Shown here: positions 21,640 through 47,060 of the stretch, piece after piece | How positions within the stretch are numbered: the stretch's first letter is position 1 | Layout: each line of letters begins with the position of its first letter | NCBI GenBank assembly: GCA_015501585.1 | Contig: JADNRY010000102.1 | Span: 62,001-126,000, forward strand | Direction of reading: 5' to 3' | DNA: 64,000 nt | Source of the DNA: Rhodocollybia butyracea | Taxonomy: Eukaryota > Basidiomycota > Agaricomycetes > Agaricales > Omphalotaceae | Notes under the pieces: generated by a model | Databases searched by the model: none | What the model saw: the letters and a program-made list of their open reading frames with translations, nothing else | Told to the model about the DNA's origin: nothing | Translations under genes and position numbers: made by a program

Positions 21640-23927
21640 TCGAGGCAACTGCTCTTTCTTTGAACCAAATACTAAATACATATATAATAACTATAGCTAT
21701 GTGCAGTTGTATGCACATCTTCCATCTTGTATCTTCTCCCCCGAATCACTTGAATTTATACACTGTAAAGAATGCTTGTAAAAGAATTGATTGGAAGAAT
21801 CATGAAAAAACTCACCACAAGCACCGCTGCTTGGTTTCGTAGCAAAGATCACCTCGTTCAAGGCTTCTTCCTTCAGATCTTTATAAGGTCCATACCTTTC
21901 GCTGACTTTCTCGATAAAGTTGTTGATGTCAGACTCGAGGACAAGAGAAACATTGCATGCTCCCCATCCAGCACCTGAAACTCAATCAAAGTACATAAGT
22001 TTCAATTCTGAATTATAAAAATGAGGGCGAAACCTGTACCCGTTAGTCGACTTCCAAGAGCCCCGGCATCCCGCAAGATTTTGGTCAATTCATTCAGTTC
22101 ATTGCATGGTAGAGTAGATCACAACTGATCTGGGATTCATTCATCAGCCATCCGAGGTTTTGGCAACATCAATTGGTGATGGTGGTTTGGTGGATGGATT
22201 GGAAGCTTGTGAAGCTGCGGAGAGACAAGTTTGGCAGAATTGAAGGACTCGGGAAGCTTTGGAGAAGACATGTTTAGCACGTTTGTAGAGCTGGAAGTGG
22301 GTAGCTTTGACTGTTGGAGAGATTAGATGTTTTCAGTTGAACTGTAGATGGTAGATTGATCTTACCTTCCACCCAGGATAAATACACCTGATTGAATTCT
22401 TCTGTACTCAGCTGCTCATCTCAATCACATCAGGAAAAGCTGTTTTTGCCTAGGTGACCCCAGAGAGGCCTAAAGCAAACTAGGTGACCTATGAATCCTG
22501 TGGCATCCTAGGAATTTGGGCTTGTCCCTTGCCAGTCAAGGCTCTTGAGGATTCCCTAGGGTATCCTAGGCAAGCCTAGGTCTGCCCAGGTTTGCCCAGG
22601 TGTTCCCAAAGTTGTCCTGGAGTTTCCCTGGGGCTTCCTAGGATACCCTAGGATACCCTGGGGAATCCTCAAGAGCCTTGACTGGCAAGGGACAAGCCCA
22701 AATTCCTAGGATGCCATAGGATTCATAGGTCACCTAGTTTGCTTTAGGCCACTCTGGGGTCACCTAGGCAAAAACGGCTTTTCCTGATGCATCTCCTCCA
22801 TTGTTACTCCCAGCTGTCTGTCCTCAGTGGCATTATGAGGCTTCAATCTTTCTGCTTCGCGTTCCATCCTGTGCAATGTTTCTGAGAGCCATTCAACAGG
22901 CATTTCACCTACTTCCTCAACCTCTCCCGCCAATTGTCCAACAACCTCTCTAAGCATCACTTTTTTGTCTTTTTCTACCTTGATGCCCAGAGGTTGTGCG
23001 AGAATCCTAGCCACAGCAAGTGTTTTGACAGCTCAGAGATTGTAGTTTCGCTTCACAATAACAGCCTTGTCAGAGACCATGAGAGAATCTGCAATAATGA
23101 ATACTGCGCCCGGTGGAAGAGGAACTACAGAGGCGGAAAGCTCTGGGAAGAAGGAGATATAGAGTGCGGAAGAGGGTATGAAGATGACTGATGTGGCTAG
23201 GTCCTGGACATGGACTGTGCATACAATAATGTTGATACATGGGATAAGACAAGAAAATTAGAATTTATTTGCCAGAGTTTATACCAACACGCTTCTCATT
23301 GCAGAGAGCCATTTGGACAAGTTGACCTTTGGAGATTTGAGGGCCGGCACCTGTAAAGTTTGGTTCAAGCTAAGGACAGATGTGTAAGATAAAAAGTACA
23401 AATAAAAGCGAGAGGAGAGACAAACAACCTTTCCATTGATAGCAAGGAGCGGGAGAGTGCTGCCTACCACCATTGCGGCACTAGATGACAGACCAGATCT
23501 ATGGGCGCTCGGCATCTCGGTGGTGGGGCAAAGACCTGACAAATATGCATGGTATGCATGTTTTCAGCGACGACACTTCCATGCATATTCTAGATGGTGT
23601 GGTCTTGGACTAATCACGATTAACATATCATGTTCAAGAAACGCAGCTGGTAGGACACTGAGAAGACAGTAATCAATGTGTTCACCTGAAACGTCAGAGT
23701 TATTGTGCTTTGTTATTTGAAATGTGTTGTTTCAAGATCATTACCGTATAATTGGGCTACGAAAATAAGTTTAACACAGACATGAAACAACAGCGAGGGA
23801 TAAAGATCTTACTTGAGTTTGCCAGGAGCTTTTGCAATGTATGCTGCTTTCCAGACAAATATGCGCTGGAATTCTTCTGCAACCATGTTCCACTTTTCAG
23901 CGTGGTTGAGACTGGTTCCGAGGTTTC
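21640..23927 (-). pseudogene. Galactokinase pseudogene (main part)
   Basis: This is a second copy of the galactokinase gene at 50344-52374, on the same strand, keeping introns and 3' flank (homology runs from about 21640). Recognisable exons include SLNHAEKWN, QRMEREAERLKPHNATED-like sequence and the last exon region. It is broken by stops, small indels, a 362-bp foldback element (22428-22789) and a 23-kb transposon. That transposon moved the first part of exon 1 to 47001-47060, where the start codon has become TTG. Substitutions relative to the intact gene are dominated by CpG to TpG/CpA. Confidence 0.93.
22428..22789. mobile_element. Palindromic CCTAGG-rich foldback MITE
   Basis: A 362-bp insertion in the galactokinase pseudogene begins CATCAGGAAAAGC and ends in the exact inverse GCTTTTCCTGATG. 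CA on each side is a probable 2-bp duplication, judged against the intact gene. Almost the entire left half pairs with the right half. The tip is packed with CCTAGG, CCTAGGC and GCCCAGG motifs. The superfamily is uncertain. Confidence 0.82.
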
Positions 23928-24145
23928 CCACCTGTAAAGCCCCAGTAATGACTTGTTTACAAGCCAATGTACGGTTTTGGAATCCGCTTGTAGATAAGTG
24001 GCTTAGATTAATATTACCTATATGCCTAAATACCAAAGATCTTAAGGCCTTTTAGGCCTGAAATAGCTCTCAGTTGCTCTTGGGCCCTCGGGATTGATAA
24101 GATCACATGATACCGTCGGACATCGTGCCTGACAGTGCTTGGGAG
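23928..24145 (+). repeat. Left terminal inverted repeat of the KDZ transposon
   Basis: The first about 115 bp match the reverse complement of the right end at roughly 95% identity by eye. Similarity continues with gaps through ATAAGATCACATGATA and GTCGGAC to CTTGGGAG at 24145. Confidence 0.92.
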
Positions 24146-24321
24146 ATTATTGTCAAAATAAACTGGCTAACTATAGTGACATAGATTGCTGATATACAGA
24201 ATTTTACAGTGTAACAAGTGCTCAAAAATATCAATTAAATGTAATATTATAAACTGTAGTATACGGGTCAAAATGCGGCCAAGACAACAAGAAGAAAGTC
24301 CAAAAACTTGAACAGCCAGAC

Positions 24322-26237
24322 CTATGTATCATCATCAATGTCCCCCTCCTCCTCCTCCTCCTCCTGATCCCGCTCCTGATCCTGATCCCACTCCTGCTCC
24401 TGTTCCCACTCCTCCTCAAGCTGGACTTCGGCGACGACCCCTTCTGCGAGACCTTTTGTAATGAGGCCGCTGAGGCTTTCTTCACCTTTGGCTTCTTTTG
24501 AGCGGGGCGATTTTTTTTCACTGTCTTCATTGTTGTCATGATTGCGTCTGTTGGAACATTTGCCCTTCGACTTCTTCTTTTGAGAGCGGCGATCGTCTTT
24601 GTCTTCATTGCCGTCATCTCCATTGGTGCGTTTGCGCTTCTTATGAGATCCACCAGCATCACTCCGTTTTGTCGTAGATTTCGGGTTGAGCTTCCCATCA
24701 TTCTCCAGGCCTTGAACATACAATTTATGGTCCAAGAAGGACATGCGCTCCCAGCGAATAGTGCCCATTTTCCATCCCTGGTATACGGCCCTGACATTCT
24801 CTGCAGAAAGCTTCTGAGGACTCCCCAGCGTGACTTCCTCCGGCCACCCAACAATCCTGACCTTGTGAGGTACAACTATGGCTCTTGCATATGCAGTATA
24901 GCTCATCAGAATGTTATTCAGGCCAGTGATCTCATCTGTGTCATATAATAAGTGCATAAATGAACATGAAATAACGTACAACTTACGCAAACAGGAGGTG
25001 ATGAGCTTGGCAAGCTCTTTATCTATTTCACCTTGGGTGAGCTGTCGATCACCACCTAGATAATAAGTCCATGAGTAGCAGATATTGAGTACTGATAGAA
25101 AGGACTTACACTTCTCCAGCTTGCATATGTGATTCTTCCATAAGATTGCCATATCTTGAGCGCCAATTTTGAAGTTTTTGCGAAGAAACTCATTGCCAGG
25201 GCCAGTGCCGTAGTAGCATGAATGTACCATATGATCCCATGAACCCCGAGCTACAAACCCAAGCATTTGACAATGCATTGCTTCAACCAAGAAGTCTGCC
25301 TAGAGAGACGTGAGCTACCAAGGACCAAGGGCAGAGGAGCGGAAAAAGAGATAAATGACTGACCTCTTGTTGCAACTGGTTGACTTTTCCCGCCACAAAC
25401 TTTGCTGCCAACTTCTTGCTTACCTGGATGGCTTTGAGCGAGTCCTCCTTCTTCTCAGAGTCATACTGCTCTCGGAACTCCTGCATTTGCTCAGGGTCAT
25501 TGAGTGCGGCCATAAGTTCTTCATCGGCCTTGAGCTTTTCGCAAGAGCTTCTGCTCTTCAGGACCCATCTCTGACCTCTTCTTCTTCTTCTTCACCGGTA
25601 TGCCGCCTGAAGCAGATAGCCTATTGAGGCTCCCAGAATCCTCAATGCAATTTTCAGAGCCTCGAGGAGCATTCCTGATGCTCAAATTTCCACTCAATGC
25701 ATCATCGTGCCTGTCGGGAGGTGAACCACCATCTGAGATGCTGCGATTGTGGCCAGATCCTCTAATGTGACTACCAGAGGTTTGAGGGGTAAAGGTGCCA
25801 GAGCTGGAACTTGATAGGCCATCAGGATGCAAATGGCTGTCTTCATCATGATGATTTGTCAGCGCAGAGGCTAAAGCCCTTTTAGATATAGGCTGAGTTT
25901 GGCCATTGTCAGCCTCAGCGCAACTAGATAGCGCAGACATGAATGAGCTTTGTGTTGGAGCATAGTTAGGCTTAGGAGCTGGAGCTGGTGGGTACAAATC
26001 TGGGGAGAGAATGCCGCCAACATATCAGTTCAAATAGATAAGAACAAGGAAGATGTCATTGTTGAAAATGCCAGCCAAACCAGCGAATCAAAAAAAAAAC
26101 AAGGAGGATAAAGAAAGAAACGCACTGATCAGCTCGGCAGTTTTCAATGAAGCGTCAGGCAACATTGCGCTCTTGTTAAGTGCAGCCACATCCACAACTT
26201 CAGCCACCTGCGGAGTTTGCCATTGAAGCCCAGCCAT
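24322..26237 (-). pseudogene. KDZ-transposon passenger: conserved hypothetical protein with acidic tail
   Basis: The start is MAGLQWQTPQ at 26237; exon 1 ends at 26126 (donor GTGCGT) and exon 2 begins at 25999. Exon 2 carries a Ser/Pro-rich disordered region ending in a Lys patch (KKKKKR). The next exons encode a folded part (MHCQMLGFVARGSWDHMVHS, later GGDRQLTQGEIDKELA and RIVGWPEEVTLGSP), then a Lys/Arg/Asp-rich stretch and a Glu/Asp-only tail ending at 24322. Exon 2 (25999-25364) is out of phase by one base; the break is near 25545. I recall similar hypothetical proteins in Agaricomycetes but know no function. Basic and acidic blocks suggest a nuclear protein, which is inference. Confidence 0.65.
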
Positions 26238-26277
26238 CAATGTACAGGCAGCAAGAAAAACGATAAATAGCTGAACC

Positions 26278-27013
26278 TAGGGTTTGAAGGTCTAATTCAA
26301 TGGACTGCAGAAAACTGATGAATTGCACTGAACTGAACCGCAAAATGAACTGATGATAGATGGACCGGTCCATGATTTAAACCTGGTCCAGTTCATGGTT
26401 CATCAAAATCTCAGAAAAAAGTGAACCACAAAGAATCAGTTTAAACCGGTACAGCCACATAGCAAAAATAATTTAGATAAATGAGTATATTTTCTCCAAT
26501 TTTGATCAATAAAATTAATATTTTCTAATGGTCTCAAGCAATAAGCTTATACAAGACTGGAAAGACTACTCATAACCTATTGAACAGTACCATGCAACAA
26601 GTCTGAGAGCCTGACATGATGCAATACACTATCCATGGTCTGTTTTAACAGATGACCAATGACTGCCAAACCTGGAAAGCATTTCTGCATGGTAAAAGAG
26701 CAGTGTAAGGCAGCCTAGAGCATATATTGAATGTTTTATATTGATTTATAGTAGTTTCTTACATGGTCTCACTTGTTACATATCTGAATATCTTTCATGC
26801 ATGTGCAGTTTAAATCAGTTTAAACCGGTATGCACCAGTGTAAATTTGCACTGATTTAAACTGCATGAACCAGGATGAATTGGACCAGTGGACCAGTGCA
26901 ATCAGTGCAGGTCCATGGTTCATACAGATTTAGGTTTTTTATGGACCGCTCCAATTCATGATTCATTGAATTGTTGGTAAATAAACTGAATTGGATTGGA
27001 CCTTCAAACCCTA
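26278..27013. mobile_element. hAT-like MITE inside the KDZ transposon
   Basis: The 736-bp insertion has inverted ends TAGGGTTTGAAGGTC(T/C)AAT and an 8-bp target duplication GCTGAACC (26270-26277 and 27014-27021). The interior has many GGACC, GGTCC and CAGTTCAT motifs and no coding frame. It lies just upstream of the acidic-tail gene and differs from the hAT-like MITE at 8316. Confidence 0.88.
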
Positions 27014-27289
27014 GCTGAACCAACTTGAAGTTTTGTCAACACCCAGTAGCTGTGGCGAAGCTTGTGATCAGGTAAGCTGAACTAGAATCAATGGGGAATA
27101 CATACAAAGTGTCTCTTGCCTTCGTACCACTGCCATCTCATCATCATCGTCGTTGCCATCCATCACAGAGCCAGACTTTTGACTGTGGAAGTAAAACACA
27201 AAAACATGACCGGTAATGATTTCATCATATCATATCATATGACTGACATAACATATGATATTTGAATAGAAACAACTCTCCCACCCAGC

Positions 27290-28429
27290 CAATGTGTTAC
27301 GGCTGAAGCTCATGCTAAATGGCTTGCAGACATCATTGATGCTCAGGCCAGTAAGGTCACCGACGATCAGCATGCAACTCAACAATCTGCACTCCAAGAG
27401 GTTGCAAAAACAGCCATTGGTAAAATTTTTTTGTTTTTTTTGTTTTTCTGTTTTTTTGTTCAACTTTTCACTTTAGCCTTGCATGATGTAGAAGTTGCTT
27501 GAGCTAAAGCTCAAGCCAGTCTCATGCTTGCTGAGAATAGCGTCAACGAAGCGTTGGAGACCGCCAACAAAAGCTTTTGTGAGCCTTTGCAACCTTGCTG
27601 CAGTTTCCCAGTTTTGAACTAATAAAATTTCTTCAGCTTTTCTTCAGACCAGCTTTGCCCCTCCAACCACGCCAGCGTGGGTTTCCACAGCTGCGCCGAT
27701 GTCTGGTGCTGGTGGAGCCTTTCCAACTGCGCCACAGACTCCGATGCTTCTCAGCAAGGCTGTCGTTTCTTCAGCTGCGCCTCAGACTCCGACGTGCCTC
27801 GCTAAGGCTGTTACTATGCCTTCTCCCTCCCCATCTAAGCCACTTTTTAGCCCTGGAGCCCATATTCAACTGACTCCAGTAGTTCTGACTGTGTGGTACA
27901 TTGTCTACCATGGCGTAGGTGGATCTCAGGGCCTATTTGATCAATGGGAGGGTGGAGACGACGCTATTGGCGCTCAGGATATTGCTGCCCACTGGTACCC
28001 TCACCGCTCTGTGAAATCATTCAAGGGCTTCAGCACTGCAAAGAGGTACTATGATGAAGTTCATGACGCTGGTATTCTAGATCTTTTGAAGCCAGTCCCA
28101 GTCCCGAATGAGGTCTTCATTGTCATTCAAGGGGTCCATCCAGGTGTCTACACCAAGAGGTTGGCCTTTTGTTCTAAGTTTTTCTTCTGCGCTGACCTCG
28201 CCGATGCTCCAGATACGAGCTTTTGAGTAAAGGCCTTGGCTGGCAGGGCGGCTATGTAATTGGAGCCGCTGGCACTCGAGATCAAGCCATTCAGGAGTTC
28301 GGCTGTCACATCCAGGACATCGAAATGCTTGATGCGCATGGCCCTTGCTCTGATGTTGACTATGTGCTGTCCCCCGACAATAAAGGTGGCAAGGAAGAAG
28401 ATGTCAAGGTGAAGGCCAAAGCTGCATAG
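27290..28429 (+). pseudogene. KDZ-transposon passenger: RNase H1 N-terminal/viroplasmin-like protein
   Basis: Exons can be joined across short introns. First comes an Ala-rich helical segment (AEAHAKWLADIIDAQASK, 27300-27420), then a second helical stretch with an in-frame TGA at about 27499, then a Pro/Ser/Ala-rich linker (27650-27860). The folded part follows: VWYIVYHGVGG, SVKSFKGFSTAKRYYDE and VFIVIQGVHPGVYTKR. The intron after GVYTKR restores YELLSKGLGWQGG and the end at 28429. The WY-VV-G...GVY and KGF(S/K)T pattern resembles the RNase H1 N-terminal (caulimovirus viroplasmin) module, seen here possibly twice. The start codon is uncertain. Confidence 0.5.
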
Positions 28430-29444
28430 TTGTTGAAGTGGCTCTATCTATCGTATATCACAAAATCTTACTGAATCGCTATATTTCTTGATGCCAATGT
28501 AATACGCATTGAAATTGACGCTGTTGAACAGTTTTTTTGTGAGACCATTTGAATTCTCAGTAAAGACTAATTGATAAGTGAACTAGTAAGAGTTATCAAT
28601 GAATTCTCAGTAACGACGAAGTTAAATTGAACTAGTAAGAGCCATTGATTTCAACAAGAGCTGCAACCCAACTATGTAGGTACTTCACAAAAATACCAAA
28701 GTATATCATCTGTTCATCGCATCTTTTGCTATCATCCATCGCAACTCGGAGCCTTACCAAACATTGGCTGATAGTTGACAATGAGAAAGAGCAAAGCTCA
28801 CTGTGCCATTTGCGTCTTCGCAGTTTTGTTAGTTTGACCCTTATTTCTATGAGCAGAAGGGAGTTAGCAGATAGAATAGTTGATAAGCAGATATTAAAGC
28901 TAGTAGTATAAAGGAAAGGACTTACTTGAGGCAGTATCATTTGGAAGCCTGTCAAGCATTAGCCTTCCAAAATTGCTCTTTGGTGGCTTTGTCCTGCTTA
29001 GATTTTCAGATTGCAGAGGCAGTGTGTTCCCTTGCCATTACTGGGCCCTCCTCAAGAGTTTACAATGAGAATTTGAAAGAGTGGTCAAAGTGGTCCACGA
29101 AAAGACAAGAAAAGCAAGTAAGCGTGCAATACATTTGAAATATCAAAGCTATTTCATGTGAACGTTAAGCGTTCCTCAAGTAAAAGAAACCATTTTATAT
29201 CAGAAGGTACCACGTACAGATGCACAAAAGAATTATGCTCGCAGATACCACTAGTATATGCAGCCAACATCCAATAATATTAGACTTATCCACTTACTTA
29301 CTAGCTCACAATACACAAAATAAATCAAAAACAGTGTTTTATGAGTTCATCACGAGTTTGTACTTCAAGTATAACTTGCTCAAACACACAAATCGTAGTG
29401 ACATTCTTATATACAGACAGTGTTATACTATACTATGGTTGCTA
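28430..29444. other. Intergenic region between convergent passenger genes, with 50-bp tandem repeat
   Basis: No gene is supported. GAATTCTCAGTAA(A/C)GAC...AACTAGTAAGAG is repeated twice in tandem with a 50-bp period (28551-28600 and 28601-28650). The rest is AT-rich with no other structure that I can see. Confidence 0.5.
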
Positions 29445-30967
29445 CTAGTCCTCCTGAAGTAATTTGAGGCCTGTCTCCCAAAGCTTTGCTCGATATTCAA
29501 CCCACGCCTGAAGCTGGCCAGGGGATGCCCGCTCCTTAAACTCCTTGTTGGACATATAACCGTTGTGAAACCACCTAGCGATTCCAGCAGGCGTAAAGAA
29601 AGCAATCGAGTGACAAACCTCATGTGAAGCAATTGGGACATTCGCATGAGTGACGCAGGCAGACGGAACATATATGGTGGCACCAGGAGGGAAAGGGAGA
29701 ACCACGCCAAGAGACCAGGCAATGAACTGCCCACTTCAAGTATGGTCATATTTTCCACTAGCATGGATTGCACACATAGAGAAGATGATGTTGAAGAAGT
29801 CTTCATGGTCCTTGGTCCAGGCATTATGCAAGTTGAAATGGCATGTGGCGTAGCAACACCCCTCAAACATGCGCTGAACGTCAGGCCCATCTGCAAGTAT
29901 TTTCTCTTGGAGATTGGCGAGGAAACGATGTAGTTTTAGAAAATAAGCTGCTAACCCAGCTGAACGGGATGTTAGCCAGAGAGCGCCAGAACATGTACCG
30001 TCAACAAGGCGAGCTATTTGACAAATGGCAGGATCCTTCAAAACATCCTCAACAAGCTGAGTATTGTGAGGCAAATTAGCATAGTTGCCAGGACAGACAT
30101 GGCCCCCGCCAAACCCAAATCCTGCAGGCAAGGTAACATAGCGGCCTCGACGATGGTCACTATGAGCTAGGTCAACGACAGCATGCTGGTACAGCCGGTC
30201 AAGCGCAGCATCTGCAGCAGTTTTATTTGCGGGCCAAGTATCCCCCTTAGGCAGCGGCATGTAGGCCATCAGCCGTTGTCTGCATGGAGTCCGCAAGGTA
30301 TGGCCAACACTAAGGGAGAGTAAGCAAAAGGGAGAAGAAATTTAAGAGCAAACAACTCACTCAAGTTCCCACTCAATGTAACAAAGCCCCAAAATCTCAT
30401 ACACACTCTTGACAGATAAGATTTTAGGCCTGGCGGCCAGCTGTAGCCCAGCCCATCCACTGCCAAGGGGCACCAGAGCTAAGTCTACAGAAATAGAGCC
30501 AGCTTCCTGCACATGGCGCCGAACAATAGCCTTCACTACAGAGCCTGAGGACTCCTGCTCTGCAGCGCGAGTGGCATGATGCTTGGCGCGGTAGCTTTCC
30601 TTCTGCCAAGCCTTTCGGGAGCCTAGTAGGCCGGGAGGTATCAGAGGACCGGGGATCCGGGGGTGTTTGGAAGAAGCTGGGAGATAGGCACAGGCCCAGA
30701 GAACCTGCTCTGCCAGAAAGATACTGGAGGGAGGAGAGAGGAGAGAGGAAGAGAAGCTATGCGGGGCTGTTTTGCCTGCAGGCTGTAAACCCGGCTAACG
30801 GCAACCTCATCGTGGTCATAGCTGGCCTCAAAGGCATCCTCCTGCCTCTTCAGAGCTCCTGCAATCAGACCCCCTGGGTCCAAGTTGAGAAGAACAATGT
30901 CGGTGCTTCGGCTTGAGCCACTAAACTCACAACCACTGCGGAGAGTATGGAAACCATCTACAAACAT
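29445..30967 (-). pseudogene. TET/JBP-family 2-oxoglutarate/Fe(II) dioxygenase, KDZ-transposon passenger (decayed)
   Basis: Minus-strand exons read DGFHTLRSGCEFSG (30960), the segment around SILSVKSVYEIL and MPLPKGDTWPANKT (30240), then the double-stranded beta-helix core. The core shows CHFNLHNAWTKDHEDFFN with the metal-binding H-x-D, then GQFIAWSLG, FPPGATIYVPSACVTHANVP with the distal metal His, and AGIARWFHNGY near the end (stop 29445). This is the fungal TET/JBP pattern; such enzymes oxidise 5-methylcytosine. Two key lesions: an in-frame TGA (29736-29738) just before SGQF, fitting CGA to TGA, and a Cys where the H-x10-R-x-S motif needs the 2-oxoglutarate-binding Arg (CGT to TGT). The protein is therefore probably inactive. 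Confidence 0.82.
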
Positions 30968-31069
30968 ATATCAGCAAGAGATGCAGGGGCATAGAGCAAT
31001 AAGAGGCCAAATGGCGTAAGAGACACGTCGCCTCCCCAGGTTTGTGGTGGCAGAGCGCATCACATACGA

Positions 31070-32879: not shown

Positions 32880-32881
32880 TC

Positions 32882-32899
32882 TGGAGCCCACCGCGAGGG
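32882..32899 (+). promoter_or_regulatory. Primer binding site candidate
   Basis: Two bases after the 5' LTR comes TGGAGCCCACCGCGAGGG. TGG complements the CCA tail of a tRNA, as expected for a minus-strand primer site. I do not assign the tRNA. Confidence 0.6.
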
Positions 32900-33378
32900 A
32901 GGGTTAAACAGTTGAAAACTTTCTTTGCAAACCTTTGCACTTGGCTTCATAGCCACACCCAAAAGAGTACTTTATTTACTCACAGACAAAAAGGCCTACC
33001 ATAGCCCACAAAAGAAGACAGAAACCTACTGTTCCCAGTGATTCTGTTGACAAACAGGCTCAACTTGAACACCAGAGTAAAGCCAGGGATCTCAGAGCAG
33101 CCAAAAGATCACAGCTATCTGAATCTCTAAGTCATCAGCCTTCCACTAGTGCAGTAGCTCCTCAGAGTTCTTTCCCAGATCAGAGTTCTTCTACACCCAT
33201 CAGAGACAGAGCAGCATCTTTGGCCAGTGGTGTTACTCAAGAAAGAATTCTTTCTAACTTGGAATCTCAGAGACACAGACTTGTTTCACAATCTTCACCC
33301 CAAAACCCTTCTGGTTCAACCAGAATAAACTCGCAACTTTCAAACCAAACCCACCCAATAAACAATCAGACAAACAAA

Positions 33379-36257: not shown

Positions 36258-39200
36258 TCAAGAAAGATCAAGGAGAGGTGGCTGTGATCTTTGAGATTGG
36301 TCCCAATGAAGAAGTTAGAATTGACAGTTATTGTTTACCTGATAAGAAGAGGTTTACTCAAGCAAAGCTGAGAGATGCTTACTTGACTAAGTCCCTTGAA
36401 GCAACGGAAACTGATCAACCGGCTCATTATACCCTTGCGACTTACTTAAATTCTATTTATTCTACAAAATCTGGTTCATCTGTCAAAGTTGACCAGAATG
36501 AGCATTGTCAACTTGTTATGGAAAATGTGGACTTGTCCACCAAAAATCTAAAAACATTTAATAAACCGAAAAGGCCTGTAAGGGCAACAAAAACATCAGA
36601 AAAATATAAAACCCAAGAAAAACTTGAAAAACAGAAAAACCCAAAAATAATTCCTAAATCTTGTGGGAGTTCCTGTTCCCACACTCCTTTATCTGATCCT
36701 GTGCATGATAATTTATTTGAGCCAAAATCAGTATTTGCTTCCAGGAAGTACAAACCTGTAGCCAAGAAGGTTAAACCTGTCATTGGTGAACTTCCTCAAA
36801 AGTTTAGAATCATTAGAGAAATTAAAGGTAATCCTTTGCAGGATATGCCTCAGTTGATGACTCACCCACCAGAGTTCACTCCCACTGGGAGATATACACA
36901 AGAAAGAAAAGAGATAATAGATCAAGTCCATAGTGAAGATTTCCTGTGGCCCGAAGAGAGAAAACTCATGCACCACTTTATGATGGTACAGGAACAAGGT
37001 TTTGCTTGGAATGATCAGGAAAGAGGGAAATTTAGAGAAGATTTCTTCCCACCTGTTGAAATGCCAGTGATACCGCATACTCCTTGGGTTCAGAAGAACA
37101 TTCCAATCCCACCTGGCACCTATGATGAAGTGTGTCGAGCGGTTAGAATCAAAATTGAAGCCGGAGTATTTGAGCCATCAAACTCATCTTATAGATCAAG
37201 ATGGTTTGGAGTTCTCAAGAAAGATGGCAAAACTATCAGACTAGTACAATCATTGGAACCATTAAATAAAGTCACTATTCAACATTCAGGACTACCACCT
37301 GCAACAGATGAATTAGCAGATCAGTTCGCTGGTTACTCCTGTGGAGCAGTTTTAGACATGTATGTTGGATATGATGAAAGAACATTGGCCAAGTCATCCA
37401 GGGACTTGACTACTTTCCAAAGCCCTTATGGTGCACTCAGACTAACAACCTTGCCAATGGGTTGGACAAATTCTGTTCCAATTTTCCATGATGATGTGAC
37501 TTATATGCTACAAGAAGAAATCCCACATGTAACAAGGCCTTACATTGATGATGTTCCAATCAAAGGACCTTTGACAAGATATGAATTACCTGATGGAGGA
37601 TATGAAGTAATCCCTGAAAATGCTGGTATCAGAAGGTTTGTCTGGGAGCACTTCCAAAATGTTAACAGAGTTGTGCAAAGAGTAAAATATTGTGGAGCAA
37701 CCTTTTCGGGTTACAAAGCAATTTTATGTGCATCTGAGTTCAAAGTGGTTGGATACAGATGTACATACCAAGGAAGAGTTGTAGACCCGGATTTAATGGG
37801 TGTAATTGAAAGATGGGGTCCTTGCAAAAATATCTCAGATGTCAGAAGTTTCTTAGGAACTGCTGGACTCTGCAGAATGTTTGTAAAGAACTATGCAAAA
37901 ATTGCTGAACCTATCAATAGACTCAGAAAAGATGGTGTCCCCTTCACTTGGACAGAAAAAGAACAAAAAGCAATGGATGACTTGAAACAAGCTATTAAAG
38001 ACTCACCTGCACTTCGAAAACTTAGATATGACATTGATGCCCCAGTTATCTTGTCTGTTGACAGTTCTTTCAAAGGTGTTGGGTTTTATATTTGCCAACA
38101 AAGTGAGACAGATCCTAAGAAAAGGCACTATGCTAGATTTGGGTCAATCACATACAACGATAGAGAAGCAAGGTTTTCACAACCTAAAAGAGAGCTATAT
38201 GGCTTATATAGGGCATTACAGGCCTGTAAGTACTGGCTCTTTGGCATAAGAACTCTTGCAATTGAAGTGGATGCAAAGTACATTAAGGGCATGCTTCAAC
38301 ATCCTGATGAAGTCCCTAATGCTGCTATCAACAGATGGATTGAGCAGATCTTGATGTTTCACTTTAACTTGAAGCATATACCTGGAAAGAAGCATGGTTC
38401 AGATGGACTTTCCAGAAGAGATGAGCAACCGGGAGATGAAGTGTACTTTAACCCTGAAGCAGAATATCAGGAAGAAGAACATTCATTTACGGTGACATTT
38501 GAGAATGGGATCGATACTACAATTCCCTTTGAAGAATTTAAAAACAAAATAGATACCAGAACAGGTTTCACTCAGCATCTGGCAGAGTCAGTACAAGACT
38601 TAGTCAAAGAAGTTGAGATAGCCAGTGAATTAGAGCTTAAATTGAGATCTAAGATTGCAGAGGAACAGCCCTCCAGTGCATCTTATGTGGCAACTCTACC
38701 TCAGATTGTCAAGTCTCAATCATTCATTAGTAAAGAAGAGTATGTTGAAAAACATAGATCAGAAAGAGCCAAAGAACAGGACAGTAGACTCCTTCTTGTG
38801 AGAAGATGGTTGAAAGATCCTGGTTGGAAACCAGAAAACATGACTGAAAATCAATATCTCAACTTCAAACAGTTTGCAAGACAGTTCTTCCTCAAGGATG
38901 AAAAGCTGTATAAAAGAGATATTGAAGGAAAGCATAAATTAGTTGTGGGCCAAGAACACAGAATGTCAATGATGAAGGCAGCACATGATGGCCTAGGTCA
39001 TAAAGGTGTCTATGCAACCAAAGCCTTACTCACAGAGAGATTCTGGTAGCCTGAATTAGATAGAGATGCCAACTGGTATGTGAAAACATGCCACTTGTGC
39101 CAAGAGAGATTAAAAGACTTGATCAGAACTCCACCGAAGTTGACAACGACTCCGTCTTTATTCCAAGTTCTTCATGCAGACACTATGCATATGCCAGATT

Positions 39201-40279
39201 CCAATAAAAAGAAGTACTTCGTGCATGGCAGGTGCCATGTTACAAGTTGGATGGAGGGGAGAGCTTTGGTCAAACAGACTGGAAAGGCCATTGGAGACTG
39301 GTTATTTGAAGAGATTATTTGCAGATGGGGATGCCTTGCAATCATTTATACAGACAATGGCACTCCATTTGTCAAAGCATTAGAATATTTGACAGAAAGA
39401 TATGGGATTAAAGGCATTAAAATTGCTCCATACAGGTCACAAGCTAATGGGAAAATAGAGCGACCTCACTGGGATGTCAGACAAGCTTTGTACAAGGCTG
39501 CTAATGGTGTTCAAGGAAGATGGTCTTACTACGTTCCAGAAGTTATGTGGGCTGATAGGATAACTGTTAGAAAGAGACTTGGTTGTTCACCATTCTTTGC
39601 TCTGACTGGTGCTCATCCTGTATTACCAATGGATATTATGCAAGCTACTTGGCTTATGCAAGTCCCAGGGCATGTTCTTAGTACCACAGAATTAATTGGA
39701 CTTAGAGCAAGAGCATTGGCATTACATACAGACAGAGTAAAAGAAATTATGAGCTCAATAGATGATAAAAAGAGGAAGGATACTTTGAGATATGAGCACA
39801 TGCATGCACATACTATAAAGAACTTCAACTTCAAACCAGGAGATCTTGTACTTGTAAGAAACTCACAGGTGGAGAACTCCTTAAGCGCAAAGATGCAGCC
39901 CATATGGCTGGGCCCCTGTATTGTCATTAGAAAAACAATGGGAGGATCCTATGTCATAGCAGAAATGGATGGGGCGGTATTTCAGAATAAGATCTCTCCA
40001 TTCAGGGTTAGACCCTATAATGCAAGACACAGAGTGACTCTTCCCACAAATTTACCAGCACTTACTGGTATCTCATTTGAAGAATTAGAGAAAATTGTCA
40101 ATGGGCCTGAACCAAATGACAAAGAACTTGAAGCAATCAGAGAGGCCTCTCTCAATCGGGATGAGCACTTTGAAATGAATTATGAAAATGACAACTCCAT
40201 CATAGAGCCCAGAATCAGAGGTGAAATAAGCGATGACATAGACTGTAACCCTGATGAGGACTTCAGTGATGAAGAATAA
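36237..40279 (+). pseudogene. Pol of the young gypsy element (RT, RNase H, integrase; one UAG)
   Basis: RT: KDGKTIRLVQSLEPLNKVT, then FQSPYGALRLTTLPMGWTN and catalytic RPYIDDVPIKGP (about 37540). RNase H: VILSVDSSFKGVGFYICQ and LAIEVDAKYIKGML. Integrase: zinc-binding H-H-C-C (HDGLGHKG to KTCHLCQERL), then catalytic D in LHADTMHM, D in YTDNGTPF and E in GKIERPHW, and a basic C-terminal part ending in an acidic tail at 40279. A TAG at 39047-39049 replaces the second Trp of the usual FWWPE in the zinc-binding part; the frame continues unbroken on both sides. So this copy yields full Pol only by read-through, or the stop is a recent mutation. Confidence 0.9.
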
Positions 40280-40450
40280 AAACATGAGTTTAAGCATAAT
40301 TGAGCAATACTACAGCTCCCTTTTGATAACCAAGTCCATGACATGACTAGAGACCCTCAGGAGCAGCCTCAGCAGAAGTAGAAGACCCCTCTGCTTGAAG
40401 CGCCTTGACAACTCTGCCATGCTCTGCAGCTAGGGAATCATGGAAGCTGA

Positions 40451-41377
40451 CTACATAATTGAGCAAGTTAAACTACAGCATTTTGTCTTGGGAGCAGGCT
40501 CTTCAATAGTGACTGTAGCACCAGGCATGGCCTCATCCACACTGAGCTGAGTAAAGAGATAACAGATAGCATACAAGGCATCCATGTAATGGGGAGCTAG
40601 ACATACCTCAGTAGTGGTCCTTAGTGCAGACAAAGTGGAATCACCCATGACCACATCCCCAGCAGATATGGAGACCAGGTCTTCATCTGAGGAATTGTCA
40701 TCCACTATGGTAGCTGACTTAGGGGTCCTCTTCCTATTTCTGCCGCCCTAGACAAGAATAATCAGTACAACAGAGTAACAAGAAAAACAAGGTCATACAT
40801 ACTTTGGGCTTGACAGTACCAGAATCAGCATTGGGAGTAGCGGAAATAGAATTAATAGCTGCAGCCACAGAAGTAGCAGGTTCATCAGGGGTTGAACTCT
40901 CCCTAACCTGATGAATCCAGCCAGTGAGGTTTTTGACAGTGGTGTAACAAGCGGGTTTTTCCATAGTCTCCCCAGGCTTGGCTGCACCATACACCTTCTC
41001 CAAACTCTCGAACTTCTGCCTGGCCAGAAAAACGGAGTTATGAAAATCTGTATCTGCCACCAGCTGAGGCCTAAAATTGACTAGTCTAGCCTAAAAATTT
41101 GAGTTGAGCTTCATTAGAGATTGGAATTAATCAGAGTAACAGAATAACCCACAAAAGAATCACCAACGGTAGCTGCCAGGTCGAAGAGGGCAGAGTACCT
41201 TCCCTTTGCAATCCAAGAGGGATAGTATTTATCATAGGCGACAAGCTCGGCTAGAGCCTCAGATTTGACCTTGTCATAATCAGCAGAAATGGCAGCAGAC
41301 ATGAGAGAAATAACAGAGTTAGAGAGTTTTTGAGCAACTGAGTAGAGATGCGAGAGCTGAGGGAGCTTGTGGAACAA
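40451..41377 (-). CDS. Spliced antisense gene between pol and the 3' LTR
   Basis: The minus-strand frame is open from 41377; the first ATG is 41302 (MSAAISADYDKVKSEAL). Exons: 41302-41153 (donor GTGGGT), 41090-40803 (donor GTATGT), 40747-40607 (donor GTATGT) and 40546-40451. All junctions are GT-AG and phase 0, giving 224 residues. The protein is helical at first (VKNLTGWIHQVRESS), then a Lys/Arg patch (GGRNRKRTPKS) and an acidic Ser-rich stretch (DDNSSDEDLVS), and ends CSLTCSIM. I do not recognise a family. Antisense genes in this position are known in some plant gypsy lineages; a regulatory or nuclear role is inference. Confidence 0.6.
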
Positions 41378-41600
41378 AGAACAGATTTTTTTAGTCCTTT
41401 TATACCAATCACAAAGCTAATTCTCGCTTCCATGCAACATTTGTTAATGCTTCAGCCTGGGCATAGATAATAGATCTAATAGAGACTTCGTCAGAACCGA
41501 AAATCGGGTAAGATCCCTGGCATCCAGTGTATTACTAGCACACGAGTTCCAAAAACTAAGCAGCATGATCCCTATGAACTGGGGACAGTTCAAATTAAGT

Positions 41601-41610
41601 GAAGGGGGGA
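41601..41610 (+). promoter_or_regulatory. Polypurine tract of the young gypsy element
   Basis: GAAGGGGGGA abuts the 3' LTR and is the expected plus-strand primer site. Confidence 0.8.
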
Positions 41611-43421
41611 TGATACGCCCGAACTTGTTTTGTCCTTAAAAATGTGCATATATGCTAATTGGAACAACTGTATGTGTAGTACGCAGTGTCGAGGCAGCGT
41701 CGGGAGTGTTTCCCACGCTCTCGCGGTCACTAAAACCCATCCTTAGAGATCTACGACGACCTGAGAAGTACCTAATTGGAGAAACCTGCTGTAATTGGCA
41801 TTTGACGTCCCAGTGCTGATTATTTGATAAGCGGCATACGAAAGATGAAGTATGGAAGCGAAATTGGCTGAAGCCTTTTGTAACACCTTTATATCCACTA
41901 TTCCCACTCGTTCAAGGCCTCCTCAGCTCGGAGTCCATCAATGATAGCTCATGAAGCAATTATTCCCTACTTAGGGTTTTTCTGCTTTAAGGATTGTTCC
42001 TCCGCATAGACACAGCGAAAGCACGACTTGCGGGGGACACCTATAACTTGAAACGAAGTTTACCCGACTCCGTCGCAGCCATTTCCACCGTTGACGACAA
42101 GACCACCAGCAATACTCCGCCGGCGGAAGCGAATATACTATAAAAGTCCGAATCTCCGGAAACATTAGTAATTCCCTGCCTTCCCGGTGTCCACATGCAA
42201 CGACATTGCACAAATAGAGTATTTCGGATCCGATTATACTAGGATAGCTTCAGCTAAGCCATAATCACCGTGCAAGCCACCTAAAACAGCGCCCTCATTA
42301 GACATACCTGCCAATATTAGCAATCTGAATGACAGAGCAAAAGATGAAGTTCAATGGCGCATACAGGCCGGGGAATCATTGAAACTAGTGAGTATCTCAT
42401 TGGGACTACCTTATTTCACCGTTCCGCCGTCGGTATCACTCAAAGAACAGCGGAGTTCACTTGAATCTAAGCGGAACCGAAGAAAATCGGAGTTATGGCA
42501 CTATTTAATGCTGTAATTAATTGAAGCGAGATCTCCGCTCACAATAGCACTCCGTCTCGTCCAGTGGACTAGAGACAACTAACAGAACATTAGAAGGAGT
42601 ATTTGGGACAATCCCAATAGTCCCAAGTACGACCCAACAGACACTAGAGCTACCCCCAACCTGGGAAGTGTTTCATTGATAACCAAGATGGAGTACTTGA
42701 TATTTCGGCTCAAGCTCCGAATTACTTGCACCCCAGACCGTTTAAATGTGCATATATTCCCATAGATGGCTACATCACATCTGGAGGTTGCCGCTTTACA
42801 GTTTTATTCCCACAGAGCGGTGACCTTTCTTGTATAAAAGCTAGCCTAGATTAACCATGAAGCTTAAGCCCCCCACTTCACTGAGAAGGTGACAGCAGCT
42901 GTCTAGTTGTTCTTTGAGGGATTATTGCTTCAGACAGACCATATCATTTTGTGCACCTTGTGTCATTGTGTAATTGGTTGTACCAGAGTTACCAGAGTTT
43001 TACCAGAGCTATCAGAGTCATCAGAACTAGTTGCGCACCAGTGTATCTTGTCAGACTTGAAAGCAGACCAGAGTTGAGAGTGACCTAGTCTTGAAAGTCT
43101 TTGTACCACCAATTTCTAAAGTATTGGGTCAAAGTTCAGTCAAGTGCAGTGTTATTTTCAGTTCAGAAGTCAGAGTCTAGTTTGATTAAAGTATTACAGT
43201 GTGTAGTGATAGTCCATTTGACTTAAAACAAAACCTGTGTTCGCCTTTTGTGCACCCTTAAAAGCAATAGTTTGATTTGAGGTTTTCTATCTGTCACTAA
43301 GTCCTCCCAGAACACAAAGGAGTTGATTTATTAAGTGTGTGTTGGTGTTAGTAGTTGGTTGTATTGGTTGTTTTATTCCATTGCACCCTACTTTTGTCCT
43401 CATACCCAGTCACCCCTATCA
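41611..43421 (+). repeat. 3' LTR of the young gypsy element
   Basis: 1811 bp, identical to the 5' LTR apart from one extra G near 42035. It is followed by the ACGA target duplication at 43422. Confidence 0.97.
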
Positions 43422-43454
43422 ACGAGCAGACCAGCAGCGGGAGTGTTGACTTAC

Positions 43455-43512
43455 ATCCTGAAGAGAGAGTATCTTCTAGTCCCTCTTCTTGGCTAGCGCG
43501 CTTGCGTTTCAT
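43455..43512 (-). CDS. Probable first exon of the TET/JBP gene, displaced by the retrotransposon
   Basis: Just right of the LTR retrotransposon, on the minus strand, ATG at 43512 opens MKRKRASQEEGLEDTLSSG and ends at a good donor (T|GTAAGT, 43454). The basic start suits a nuclear localisation signal. Only 29 bases separate the donor from the retrotransposon. Without that element an acceptor (TTTGTAG) near 30966 would join it to the TET exons, giving an intron of about 130 bp. The linkage is inferred. Confidence 0.45.
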
Positions 43513-43633
43513 TAGTGCTCTGGGGCAAAGACATATGATGAAAGTAGAAGCTTAAGAGTGGGCGCTTAAGCAACTTCGTGCTTTTCTACATGCCAGGCAC
43601 ATGATCAATGGGCGGTGGTCATGTGCTTAAGAC

Positions 43634-46600
43634 ATGTCTAACACACGCCGGTACAACAACGCTGTGAAAGCAAGAACAAACCGAAATCTTTGAGGACCAT
43701 CCCATGGACTTCACAGTGACAGTGACTCTCAGAGAAAGGCGACTACGCAGCGAAGGGCAACTCAGTCTCTACAACTTTCACAAGTCAACGCTGAACGCGA
43801 CAAAGGAGCAGCAGCAGAGGCTTGGCGTATAATTCTACAGGCACCAGATGTAGTGGAGTCGCAAAATCACTCCATTCCTGTAGACACTTATTGCGACTAT
43901 AACACTCAAAACTACAACAACGCGATGGAATGGGACAATGACCCTGACTGGGTTGCTGTACAAGAAGAGGGAAATGTTGACAACAATCTTACCAAAGCTC
44001 TGAAAGAGATACGGTACATATACCGTGATTTCTGTACCAGGCGAGACCGCATGCAAATATCGAACAAGCACTGGGCTCCTCAGCTGGACGAAATGGTAGA
44101 TGCTTATATGGACTTCTGCTGCAGAGTGAAGGCTGGAAACTTACGAGAGGGAGAAGAAGATGCTACTGCTATGGTTCTGGAAGTAATAGATGTTTTTGGT
44201 ATGTCTCATCTCTGACCTCAAGGCCATCCTACTGACTGAATCTTAACCTTGCAAGTACTGAATTAAAACCCATCCCTTCCTCTAAAGATAGGTAGCAATC
44301 TGCAACTCTAGTGAGGTCAGGCATTATCCCCACCTCCCCTCTTGTTCACAGTAAAGGAATCACCATCCGCACACTTAGCCTGTATCACAAGCTCTTCGTT
44401 CAGTGCTCAAGGCTTGGGGTCCAATCCTTTGCAAAGTCGTTGTGCAACCTTGATGAGACGCCGTTCAGGCCTTATCTCTCTTCTGAGGTATATGTTGCCT
44501 TTGACGTCTACATCTCCATTCTGCGAGAAGTTTGTAAATGCACAAGAGCTTTGCTTAGGCCAGAGGGCCAGGAATGGCAAATGCTAAATGCCTGCCTGTC
44601 TTGCCAGTACCAGCTTAAAGAGGATGATGAGCAGGATGTCTGAATGCTGATAGCAATGGACAGTAATGACTCCTTGAAGCGTGTCAAACGCAAGGAGGAC
44701 ATTCTCCAAGAGCGGGAGGATGCAGGAGAAGATTTGCCAGCAGCATCAAAGGAATGCATTGACTGTCAGACAGCAGGAGAAGATTACTTTGTCTCCTGGG
44801 CTGAAACTGCCAAGTGGGATGAAAGGGGCTGGGAGTCGCTTCAGTTACCTCAGGGAGACCCTTCCGCACCGCCTGAAAATTTCTGGGCAGACAGCGGCTG
44901 TGAAGAGAAGTGGCAGAACATGGATGAGAAGAAAACTGCCAAGGAGACCTTGAAATTCTTTGAAAATGGATGGTTTGTACTGCTCTGTCGCCACATGATA
45001 ATGATCCTGGCTTGCAATATGGTGAGGAGCAGCAAGTTGTAAGCCATTTCTTCAATTCTCGACAGTGTTTGGAAGCTAACGATGTTATAGATACCAATAC
45101 CCACTCGCGCTGCTAGCTATCTATATGATCGCCAAGAAAGAAGAGCGTGAAAGAAACAGAGAAGGGCCGCCCAAAGGAAAGCTTGCGAATGCCTATGACA
45201 TGCACTGTAAATTCTCAAAACACATTAAATGCAGCCCTCTCAAATTGATTGCCAAGTGGTCAAAGTATCTTCCGGTCATAGGGACGATGCATGGCTACGC
45301 TCACAACTGGCAGTGCCAGCTCTTATTCCTCATGCTTTATATCATAGGCATTGGTATTGAGGATGGGAAGGTATGTGAGAGCTACTTCAGTATCTCAAAC
45401 GCTCTTGCTGCCATCAGTCATTACCAATTGGCCTTTCATTGACAACAGTCCATCTCCAAATTCATATACTACCAGGATCTCCAGCCATATTCAAACATTA
45501 GCAAGTTCATCTACGGGAATTACAAGCAGGCTTTGTCCATAGTCCAAGAGGCCCCTGTCCTTCAACAAAGCATGCTTGATGCTGGTATCAACTCTCCTAA
45601 CGTTTTCTTCAAGTGGCTGATGGAGGAGGGCGAGTACTTACAAAGTCTCTCTTGGACGCTGCTGAAAGAGACTTTGGAGTCTGAGTACTATCTGAGGTTG
45701 GAAGCGTTGAAAGCTTGTCAGGATCACCTTCAGAAGGCTCGAAAGGCTTGGCTATCCTTTCTGCCTGGTGTCCGTGACCAGACCAACATTCTTGAAACCA
45801 AACACAGAAATGAGTAAGAGAATGAATGCAAACTTCTGGCAGACGTGCATGCTTTGGAGGAGAAGCTGGCGATCCAGATATGTTGGTCAGAGGGCTCTGA
45901 AAAGTGGGAGGAGGCTAAGAAGGCAGTGAAGGAAATAGCTTATAGGAAAGCATTAGATAAGTTGGAAGGCCTCCTCGTTGCTCAAGTATTCGAGATGAGT
46001 TGCTTGAACGTCATGGGAACTGGTGAGTCTTTTACAGCTGGGCCCATTTCTTATACTGAGAGCAGATTACTAGGTTACAAACTTTGGAAGCACATCGCAA
46101 ACACCATGAAGATCCATTCAAAAACCATCTCCGCTGCTATCATCTTGTATAACAATGCAGTGACAGCCCTCACCCCTCCCTGATCAACACTCAAGTGTGA
46201 GGAAGCGCTTGAATATGTTTACCTTTCAGAGTTCAATATTCTGCAAAATGCAAGAGAGGAAGTGGGCTACCCCCGGAAACCAACTTATCATGACAAGATT
46301 CTTCAAACTCATCCGCACAGAGGAAGAGATATGTCGACTACATATGGAGATCCAGCGTTTGATCACCCACATGTTTGACAAAGAGGATCTGATATTGAAT
46401 AAGGCAGAAGATATGGAACTGGAGAACCCTGGGCTGGTGCTGCAGTTGCGGTCTTATTGGAACGAGCAGGGAAAGTTCAACAAGCTCCACCATAGGCACC
46501 TCTTTGCAATCAAAAAGCTGCCAGGATTTCAGCCCGAAAATATACACTACTTTCGCCAAGGAACGCATGTTAGCCAGGAAGATACCTCTATGGGTCCAGA

Positions 46601-46745
46601 GAGTCTGCGTGGCCATGCAGATGCCAGGGCAGAGCCTGATGAATCAGCTGAGCCCTGGGTTGAGGATGAGGACGGAGGTGACGAGGAGGATGAGATTCTT
46701 CTAGATTCAGCAGACGCTGTCATGAACCTCACCGTCGATGAGTAG
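43634..46745 (+). pseudogene. KDZ transposase with CxC-type cysteine cluster (degenerate)
   Basis: The transposase that would mobilise 23928-47000. ATG at 43634 (MSNTRRYNNAVKART); the N-terminal part contains WAPQLDEMVDAYMDF. Next is the CxC cysteine-cluster region (GIIPTSPLVHSKGITIRTLS, CNLDETPFRPYLSSEVYVAF, ACLSCQYQ), then MLIAMDSNDSLKRVKRKED. The KDZ core follows: LLCRHMIMILACNMVRS, AYDMHCKF, GYAHNWQCQLLF and GIEDGKVCESYFSISNALA, then a long helical C-terminus with an acidic end. In-frame stops at 43691, 44641 and 45440 (all TGA where Arg is expected) and a TAA near 45815, plus probable introns near 44215-44310 and 45040-45090, leave it non-functional. Identity rests on recalled family pattern and is strong. 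Confidence 0.9.
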
Positions 46746-46810
46746 ATGTATATATTCATAGTGTATTTTGAGTATTTAGCTGTGCTGGAATGAGAAAAGT
46801 GAACCCCAAA

Positions 46811-47000
46811 CTCCCAAGTGCCATTGGGCACAACGTCCGACAATATCATGTGATCTTATTGACCCCGAAGGCCTGAGTAGCTATTCCAGGCCTTTGGTAT
46901 TTAGGTGTATAGGTAGTATTAATTTAAGCCATTTATCTACAAGCGGATTCCAAAACCGTACATCCGCTTGTAAACAAGTCATTACTGGGGCTTTACAGGT
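46811..47000 (-). repeat. Right terminal inverted repeat of the KDZ transposon
   Basis: It runs from CTCCCAAGTG at 46811 to the terminus CTTTACAGGT at 47000, and is the inverse of 23928-24145. It lies just 3' of the transposase stop at 46743-46745. Confidence 0.92.
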
Positions 47001-47060
47001 GAGGTTTCTGTATAGATCGTTCAAGTTGGCACAAACAGGGATAGCTCGTTCTGCGGCCAA
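47001..47060 (-). pseudogene. Detached 5' end of the galactokinase pseudogene
   Basis: Immediately right of the KDZ transposon the minus strand reads AAERAIPVCANLNDLYRNL, the start of galactokinase exon 1 (MAAEQPIPVYTNLNDLYGSL in the intact copy). Homology continues about 25 bp into the 5' leader. The start codon is TTG (47060). It begins with the 8-bp target duplication GAGGTTTC. Confidence 0.92.

Follow-up and report, generated by a model that had tools for sequence, protein, structure and literature searches.

A KDZ transposon with a predicted TET/JBP-fold dioxygenase gene in a galactokinase copy of Rhodocollybia butyracea

KDZ DNA transposons bearing TET genes have been published, and TET-positive Zisupton and Kyakuja elements of Agaricomycetes as well as TET genes in Plavaka elements are described in the portion of Kojima 2025 (PMC12730594) available to us. 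There, transposon-borne TETs are grouped into the three types AG, PE, and PU, with Gly/Ser331 and Asp337 (CcTet numbering) characterizing the AG type and HxE in place of HxD the PE type. The element considered here, copy A, lies in a stretch of 64,000 nucleotides of Rhodocollybia butyracea (assembly GCA_015501585.1, contig JADNRY010000102.1, positions 62,001 to 126,000), hereafter the window. Copy A is a KDZ DNA transposon with the termini CACCTG...CAGGTG and a total length of 23,073 bp, of which 10,717 bp remain as its core when a nested long terminal repeat (LTR) element is subtracted, and it splits exon 1 of a minus-strand galactokinase copy. The initial annotation of the window had recognized the transposon and left a notable part of its cargo unnamed, a predicted TET/JBP-fold dioxygenase. 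TET-bearing KDZ transposons are already known, but the predicted active site of this enzyme is unlike the two mushroom types described in that text.

The inverted ends of copy A, annotated at about 190-220 bp, were aligned over 221 columns with 77% identity, rising to 94% in the first 110 bp. The alignment scored 181 bits, while the maximum among 38 random pairs of 500-bp window pieces was 27.4 bits. The annotated limits of 23920..47008 were moved to 23929 and 47001, and the annotated 8-bp repeat was retained as an 8-bp target-site duplication in another register. This register follows from copies B and C elsewhere in the genome, because both carry exact 8-bp duplications directly outside CACCTG...CAGGTG. 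The duplication proposed earlier, GAGGTTTC, lies one base to the left of AGGTTTCC/AGGTTTCT; it too aligns without gaps to the galactokinase paralogue, but it leaves the ends asymmetric and does not hold for copies B and C. The two duplications of copy A, AGGTTTCC and AGGTTTCT, are identical in seven of eight bases, and the paralogue carries a C inside a CpG at the remaining one, so that the differing base is, by this comparison, the C of a CpG turned T on the right side. Dating of copy A by the divergence of its inverted repeats was set aside because even in B and C, which are young, the two ends are about 12% divergent.

Joining the flanks across a single copy of the duplication gave a sequence that aligns gaplessly with the paralogue (52.2-52.4 kb) for 184 bp. 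The flanks are thus the two parts of galactokinase exon 1 and the empty site can be reconstructed inside the window, both as first annotated. The disrupted copy carries TTG for the ATG of the paralogue, lacks 169 bp, and contains a palindromic insertion of 362 bp at 22428-22789, which agrees with its description as a pseudogene. A genome search with the 170-aa exon of the paralogue hit nothing beyond the paralogue itself and three fragments of the disrupted gene. The palindrome is near-perfect with arms about 88% alike over their length and does not occur in the paralogue.

The genome of R. butyracea (95.6 Mb, 1,381 contigs) was searched with the left end, and two more end pairs were found, those of copies B and C, in which the 19-bp terminus is exact at both ends. 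Both copies start with CACCTG and finish with CAGGTG. A lack of other copies with these termini had been named as the outcome that would speak against the annotated element; B and C do share them, and the 8-bp duplications that the annotation asked to have checked at such copies are exact in both. For copy B, two copies of a repeat beside copy C provide empty sites, aligned without gaps and identical at 149/152 and 148/153 positions. The core of copy A shares 64.5% identity with B over 10,111 gap-free columns, compared with 98.7% between B and C over 10,612 columns. Further elements at C620, C650, and C902 have CACCTG...CAGGTG ends with 16 of the 19 terminal bases as in copy A, and those at C837 and C905 end in CACCTC...GAGGTG; inverted repeats extend over at least 305-361 bp. 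This reading of the termini covered six groups, each partially. Exact 8-bp duplications flank five of the eight elements (B, C, C650, C902, and C905), copy A follows with seven of eight bases, and no target duplication was found when the flanks of C620 and C837 were checked. The element at C620:149-11253 shares its right flank with that at C650:324446-335512, while their left flanks differ. Together with the two missing duplications, this may point to copies having recombined or to a join made in assembly.

The core of copy A encodes a KDZ transposase, as annotated, with the KDZ domain (PF18758) detected at E 8.8e-17 in one exon of copy A and 3e-19 in copy B, exceeding the cut-off of 26.6 bits. 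The two features of the KDZ superfamily, a KDZ-domain transposase and a flanking target duplication, are thereby both present. In the profile search of the genome, two KDZ exon matches fell on the contig of the window. Transposases A and B share 76% amino-acid identity over 720 codons, and their differences counted exon by exon fall 118/85/332 on the three codon positions. An earlier count of 250/152/186, without third-position excess, was discarded as it spanned introns and a frame change. In-frame stops occur in copy A at 44641 (TGA), 45440 (TGA), and 45815 (TAA), and the frame is also broken by one stop in B and a frame shift in C.

Zisupton is described in the available text of PMC12730594 with 8-bp duplications and terminal inverted repeats, both of which were found here, and Kyakuja with duplications of 7 bp and ends that lack inverted repeats. 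Kyakuja was rejected on account of the 8-bp duplications in B and C and the inverted repeats of about 200 bp. The elements of that source and the family of copy A have in common a KDZ transposase with a TET/JBP dioxygenase in one element, CA...TG ends, and, for Zisupton, the 8-bp duplications. Known TET-positive members of Dileera come from rusts, whereas the host here is a mushroom. The main text of Kojima 2025, as far as it was available, does not name Rhodocollybia, Lentinula, or Omphalotaceae, and our literature search, conducted mostly without subscription journals, found no publication on Rhodocollybia KDZ elements.

Inside copy A, a Ty3/gypsy LTR retrotransposon is nested, as indicated by the order reverse transcriptase, RNase H, and integrase between paired LTRs. 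Pfam matches were over or near the cut-off for RNase H (1.6e-15) and the integrase zinc-binding domain (5.1e-5) and below it for reverse transcriptase (0.0012) and the integrase core (0.14), with a weak zinc knuckle. The TG...CA paired LTRs, the RNase H and integrase zinc-binding domains, and the 4-bp duplication resemble Ty3/gypsy elements, from which the nested element differs in its 1.8-kb LTRs and in the antisense frames that separate pol from the 3' LTR. These antisense frames are open at 40451-41416 of the minus strand, and a Pfam scan of two of them gave no match. Because the LTRs are identical apart from one 1-bp indel, the retrotransposon most probably inserted recently. The annotated reading of one 23-kb KDZ transposon, with reverse transcriptase genes among its cargo, draws on the fact that both ends and the duplication surround the whole segment. 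However, copies B and C, at 10.6 kb, do not contain the inner 12.35 kb, which has its own LTRs, TG...CA ends, and 4-bp duplication, and we give a single 23-kb unit practically no credence. With the nested element subtracted, the family corresponds to an ordinary element of 10.7 kb.

An assembly join of unrelated repeats was also considered, as the genome is repeat-rich and spread over many contigs, the arrangement is known here from the assembly, and the related elements at C620 and C837 lack matching duplications. Several coincidences would be needed for it to produce the independent duplications and empty sites of A and B together with the duplication around the nested element, and such a join is very unlikely. 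The preferred history is that an autonomous-type, Zisupton-like KDZ transposon of about 10.7 kb entered one of the two galactokinase copies within exon 1 and left an 8-bp target duplication, the transposase presumably cutting at the inverted repeats and inserting with an 8-bp stagger. Copy A afterwards decayed, partly by C-to-T changes at CpG, and was recently entered by a Ty3/gypsy retrotransposon. We regard the anatomy and insertion history of copy A as almost certain. Feature coordinates are collected in Table 1.

Table 1. Features of copy A, its surroundings, and its close copies; positions refer to the window except for copies B and C
Feature	Position	Strand	Basis or remark
KDZ transposon copy A with nested insertions	23929..47001	.	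Termini common to copies B and C
Left target-site duplication AGGTTTCC	23921..23928	+	Register set by copies B and C
Right target-site duplication AGGTTTCT	47002..47009	+	Register set by copies B and C
Left terminal inverted repeat	23929..24148	+	221-column alignment, 77%
Right terminal inverted repeat	46808..47001	-	Alignment with left repeat
KDZ transposase gene, several exons	43694..46745	+	Pfam KDZ at 44641-45048, 45179-45475
Predicted TET/JBP-fold 2-oxoglutarate dioxygenase gene, public model P0001	29448..30794	-	Predicted structure of relative, homology
Third protein, public model P0124, 531 aa	24322..26276	-	Conserved in A, B, C
Fourth conserved reading frame	27618..28426	+	57% and 55% amino-acid identity to B, third-position excess
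Copy-A-only segment, ~750 bp, edges with 45-bp inverted repeat (76%)	26260..27012	.	Not in B, C
Nested Ty3/gypsy LTR retrotransposon, 12,352 bp	31070..43421	+	Paired LTRs, target duplication
4-bp duplication ACGA around nested retrotransposon	31066-31069 and 43422-43425		
5' LTR, 1,810 bp	31070..32879	+	Against 3' LTR: no mismatch, one gap column
gag- and pol-like frames of nested element	32953..40279	+	Pfam matches
3' LTR, 1,811 bp	41611..43421	+	Alignment with 5' LTR
Galactokinase pseudogene, larger part (from the end of exon 1 onwards)	21671..23928	-	Comparison with paralogue
Galactokinase pseudogene, exon 1 start (TTG replacing ATG)	47010..47092	-	Comparison with paralogue
Galactokinase paralogue, open frames, empty site; GAGGCTTCCGTATAG at 52315	50269..52406	-	5 kb away
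Copy B, 10,625 bp	C1094:105178-115802		Flanked both sides by GCAAGATC, exact 8 bp
Copy C, 10,619 bp	C531:12175-22793		Flanked by CAACCATT, exact 8-bp duplication

The minus-strand frame at 29.4-30.3 kb matched an R. butyracea database protein with 100% identity over 66% of the query, and differences between the element copies fall 59/33/148 on the three codon positions over 273 codons. The structure of a Gymnopus androsaceus relative (P0005) was predicted from 65 sequences with a predicted local distance difference test score (pLDDT) of 95.5 and a predicted template modelling score of 0.92. In Foldseek, CcTet structures occupied ranks 1-12 (best E 1.5e-10) and NgTet1 ranks 13-16, and with VIA-align the highest scores were obtained for NgTet1 (18.6), CcTet (18.5), and TET2 (15.6), followed by FTO (13.1) and PHD2 (12.8). 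With TET structures first in both rankings, the predicted model gives the family a clear TET fold.

Active-site residues were read from an alignment of 65 relatives hand-picked from 123 (alignment A4). The HxD...H iron ligands and the 2-oxoglutarate-binding Arg of TET/JBP dioxygenases are present in the family, with the first His in 65, Asp in 63 (Asn in 2), the second His in 65, and the Arg in 60 sequences. In copy A itself, Cys stands in place of the 2-oxoglutarate-binding Arg, and an Arg codon that reads CGA in B is the in-frame stop TGA in A and C. Three residues after the HxD Asp, Asn occurs in 65/65 sequences and nine residues after it Cys in 64/65; six residues after the 2-oxoglutarate-binding Arg, Phe or Tyr is found in 65/65, and eight residues after it Ala in 43, Ser in 15, Pro in 5, and Leu and Gly in 1 each. 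By the available text of PMC11040006, these positions correspond to Gly331, Asp337, Phe391, and Arg393 of CcTet and Asn1387, Thr1393, Tyr1902, and His1904 of TET2, a mapping that presumes no insertion between HxD and the mapped positions, with CcTet itself outside the alignment. Asn1387 of TET2 bonds N4 of 5-methylcytosine (5mC) and excludes N6-methyladenine (6mA) (PMC11040006, in the part available). From this alignment, the family is predicted to retain an Asn of the TET2 kind, suited to bonding 5mC and expected to clash with 6mA, but to lack the Arg/His contact.

Measured against the described types, the Asn and Cys found at equivalent distances from the Asp of HxD differ from the AG residues, and HxE of the PE type occurs in 0/65 relatives, with HxD in 63 and HxN in 2. 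Judged by the residues printed in the available text, the dioxygenase is neither AG nor PE, a comparison that covers two of the three types. CcTet of Coprinopsis cinerea has Gly331, Asp337, and Arg393 (PMC11040006, as far as available) where the family has Asn, Cys, and Ala/Ser/Pro, and structural alignments between them reach 15-16% identity. With NgTet1 and human TET2 the family shares the fold, and with TET2 also the Asn at Asn1387, where NgTet1 has Asp234. Unlike them, it lacks a His at the place of His1904/His297, is transposon-borne, and shows 12-14% identity. CcTet, an unusual 5mC/6mA enzyme, is to our knowledge the only mushroom TET studied in detail, and a TET2-like substrate residue in a family widespread among mushrooms would offer a ready test of which residues determine 5mC versus 6mA. 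Iyer 2014 is said to be the paper that named KDZ, and it may already include this dioxygenase family.

Across the genome, at least 140 dioxygenase, 144 KDZ, and 138 Plavaka matches were obtained, all lower bounds, with 123 of 237 Plavaka candidates scored. They were merged into 130, 88, and 88 loci, respectively, by script for the first two and by hand for Plavaka. A dioxygenase lies within 8 kb of 28 of the 88 KDZ loci and of 17 of the 88 Plavaka loci, where about 1.9 would be expected in each case if spread evenly across the 95.6 Mb. At the KDZ loci the orientation is opposite in 27 of 28, with 17 dioxygenases on the 5' side and 10 on the 3' side, while 14 of the 17 Plavaka-paired dioxygenases lie downstream in the same orientation. 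Copy A is outside the 28 because the nested element sets its genes 14.7 kb apart. At the remaining 85 of the 130 dioxygenase loci, no transposase of either kind is close by. One Plavaka-dioxygenase pair is located on the contig of the window, outside the window itself (C25:20485-21558 and C25:26475-26930). A further KDZ group (L012-L015, L017, L019-L021, L038, and L040) has a different core and a weak or partial match to the transposase of B, and only C1027:164821 (L038) from this group counts among the 28 loci.

Between B and C, 137 substitutions were counted, 128 of which are transitions, 110 of these at CpG. The rate amounts to 0.103 at CpG sites and 0.0019 for other transitions, a 54-fold difference. 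A further 28 locus pairs were compared, which overlap in their loci and do not count as independent. Identity is 95% or higher in 22 of them, and 20 of these have a ratio of at least 21; the other two comprise one pair with 2 changes (ratio 9.3) and one without changes. Six pairs at 91-93% identity gave ratios of 5.4-6.9. The galactokinase pair and A versus B reached 3.7 and 1.8, low ratios that are expected because other changes accumulated. TCG was the context most affected between B and C (50 changes at about 254 sites), followed by GCG (25/273), ACG (22/218), and CCG (13/209), a TCG preference not seen in every pair. With A as outgroup, the older state is supported as CG at 47 of 104 sites and as the changed base at 39, with 18 sites supporting neither, as expected of recurrent CpG changes, with the direction only partly clear. 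Near-identical copies thus differ almost only by CpG transitions, as would be expected of methylated DNA. Among Agaricomycetes, hypermutation of repeats at CpG has already been published for Rhizoctonia and Tricholoma (PMC4014442, PMC6980582, in the parts available), and a claim of novelty for the CpG decay was dropped on that account. The CpG-biased C-to-T change in a mushroom-forming lineage is alike in those reports; here it is seen between near-identical TET-bearing elements.

The element encodes its own transposase and, oriented the opposite way, the predicted TET/JBP-fold Fe(II)/2-oxoglutarate dioxygenase, and it carries two more proteins that are conserved. An anti-silencing dioxygenase cargo is the proposal made for TET-bearing elements in the available text of PMC12730594, and it fits here: the enzyme would oxidise 5mC on the DNA of the element and weaken methylation-based silencing, a role to which we give about an even chance. 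Protection, if any, would be partial, short-lived, or past, because the elements decay at CpG despite the dioxygenase.

Several observations weigh against the account as a whole. The elements show strong CpG decay although they carry the dioxygenase gene, 60 of the 88 KDZ loci have no dioxygenase within 8 kb, and none of the close copies A, B, and C is demonstrably active because every transposase frame is broken. The position of CcTet Arg393 and TET2 His1904 is without Arg or His. Pfam Tet_JBP gave no match to the window frame, was barely reached by the relatives (15/65 at E<=0.001, best 1e-7), and stayed below its cut-off at each of four matches in the genome. No TET came up when PDB sequences were searched with the window frame, with two profiles, or with two relatives, and a model built earlier from 10 close sequences had a pLDDT of 36.6. 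One profile had its best PDB match at E 0.029, to a protein unrelated in fold and function, which was regarded as a chance hit. For Tet_JBP, two of 10 close relatives matched at E up to 1, and the domain is precomputed in 8 relatives among 120 of 160 matches listed.

The dioxygenase could instead be a passenger 2-oxoglutarate enzyme with another substrate, such as a protein hydroxylase or an enzyme of 6mA or another base, which does not counter methylation. Four relatives (P0023, P0025, P0034, and P0104) have source names starting with "Prolyl 4-hydroxyl...", the 5mC-contacting Arg/His of CcTet/TET2 is not conserved, and CpG decay continues in gene-carrying elements. Against a passenger stand the first rank of TET structures (18.6 versus 13.1 for FTO and 12.8 for PHD2), the invariant Asn equivalent to TET2 Asn1387, which bonds 5mC and excludes 6mA (PMC11040006, in the part available), and the non-random pairing with two transposase superfamilies, and we consider this alternative unlikely. 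Returning to the anti-silencing transposon, the account as a whole, with the role of the dioxygenase kept conditional, is judged very probable. A broader claim is tentative and, taken jointly, leans towards the improbable: a further transposon-borne TET type beside AG and PE, in which a TET2-like Asn would hold 5mC while the usual Arg/His contact is missing, would occur throughout Agaricomycetes, be exchanged between KDZ and Plavaka within one genome in an orientation fixed for each superfamily, and counter silencing by CpG methylation. Complete elements with fixed ends, a young pair such as B and C, and a clean CpG record, all within one genome, allow asking whether a transposon's own TET alters its methylation and decay.

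The third and fourth proteins gave no family in a Pfam scan. Models of the third protein (P0124, P0125, and P0126) differ by 47/38/97 at the three codon positions over 212 codons, and a database search, whose sensitivity is limited to shared words, returned three matches, all from R. butyracea and equal to the three copies. The fourth frame differs by 49/46/98 over 187 codons, while an antisense control (36/39/25) has no third-position excess. The initial annotation had remarked that KDZ cargo is usually called as host genes, which fits the public record, where the dioxygenase (BDP27DRAFT_1424736) and the third protein (BDP27DRAFT_1424734) are both labelled "hypothetical protein".

Elsewhere in the window, inverted and direct repeated blocks at 17636-18314 and 20842-21477 are 80-93% alike and probably represent another foldback repeat family, to which a piece at 4173-4249 is related. 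Tandem copies of 204 bp, 98% alike, are located at 4098-4301 and 4320-4523.

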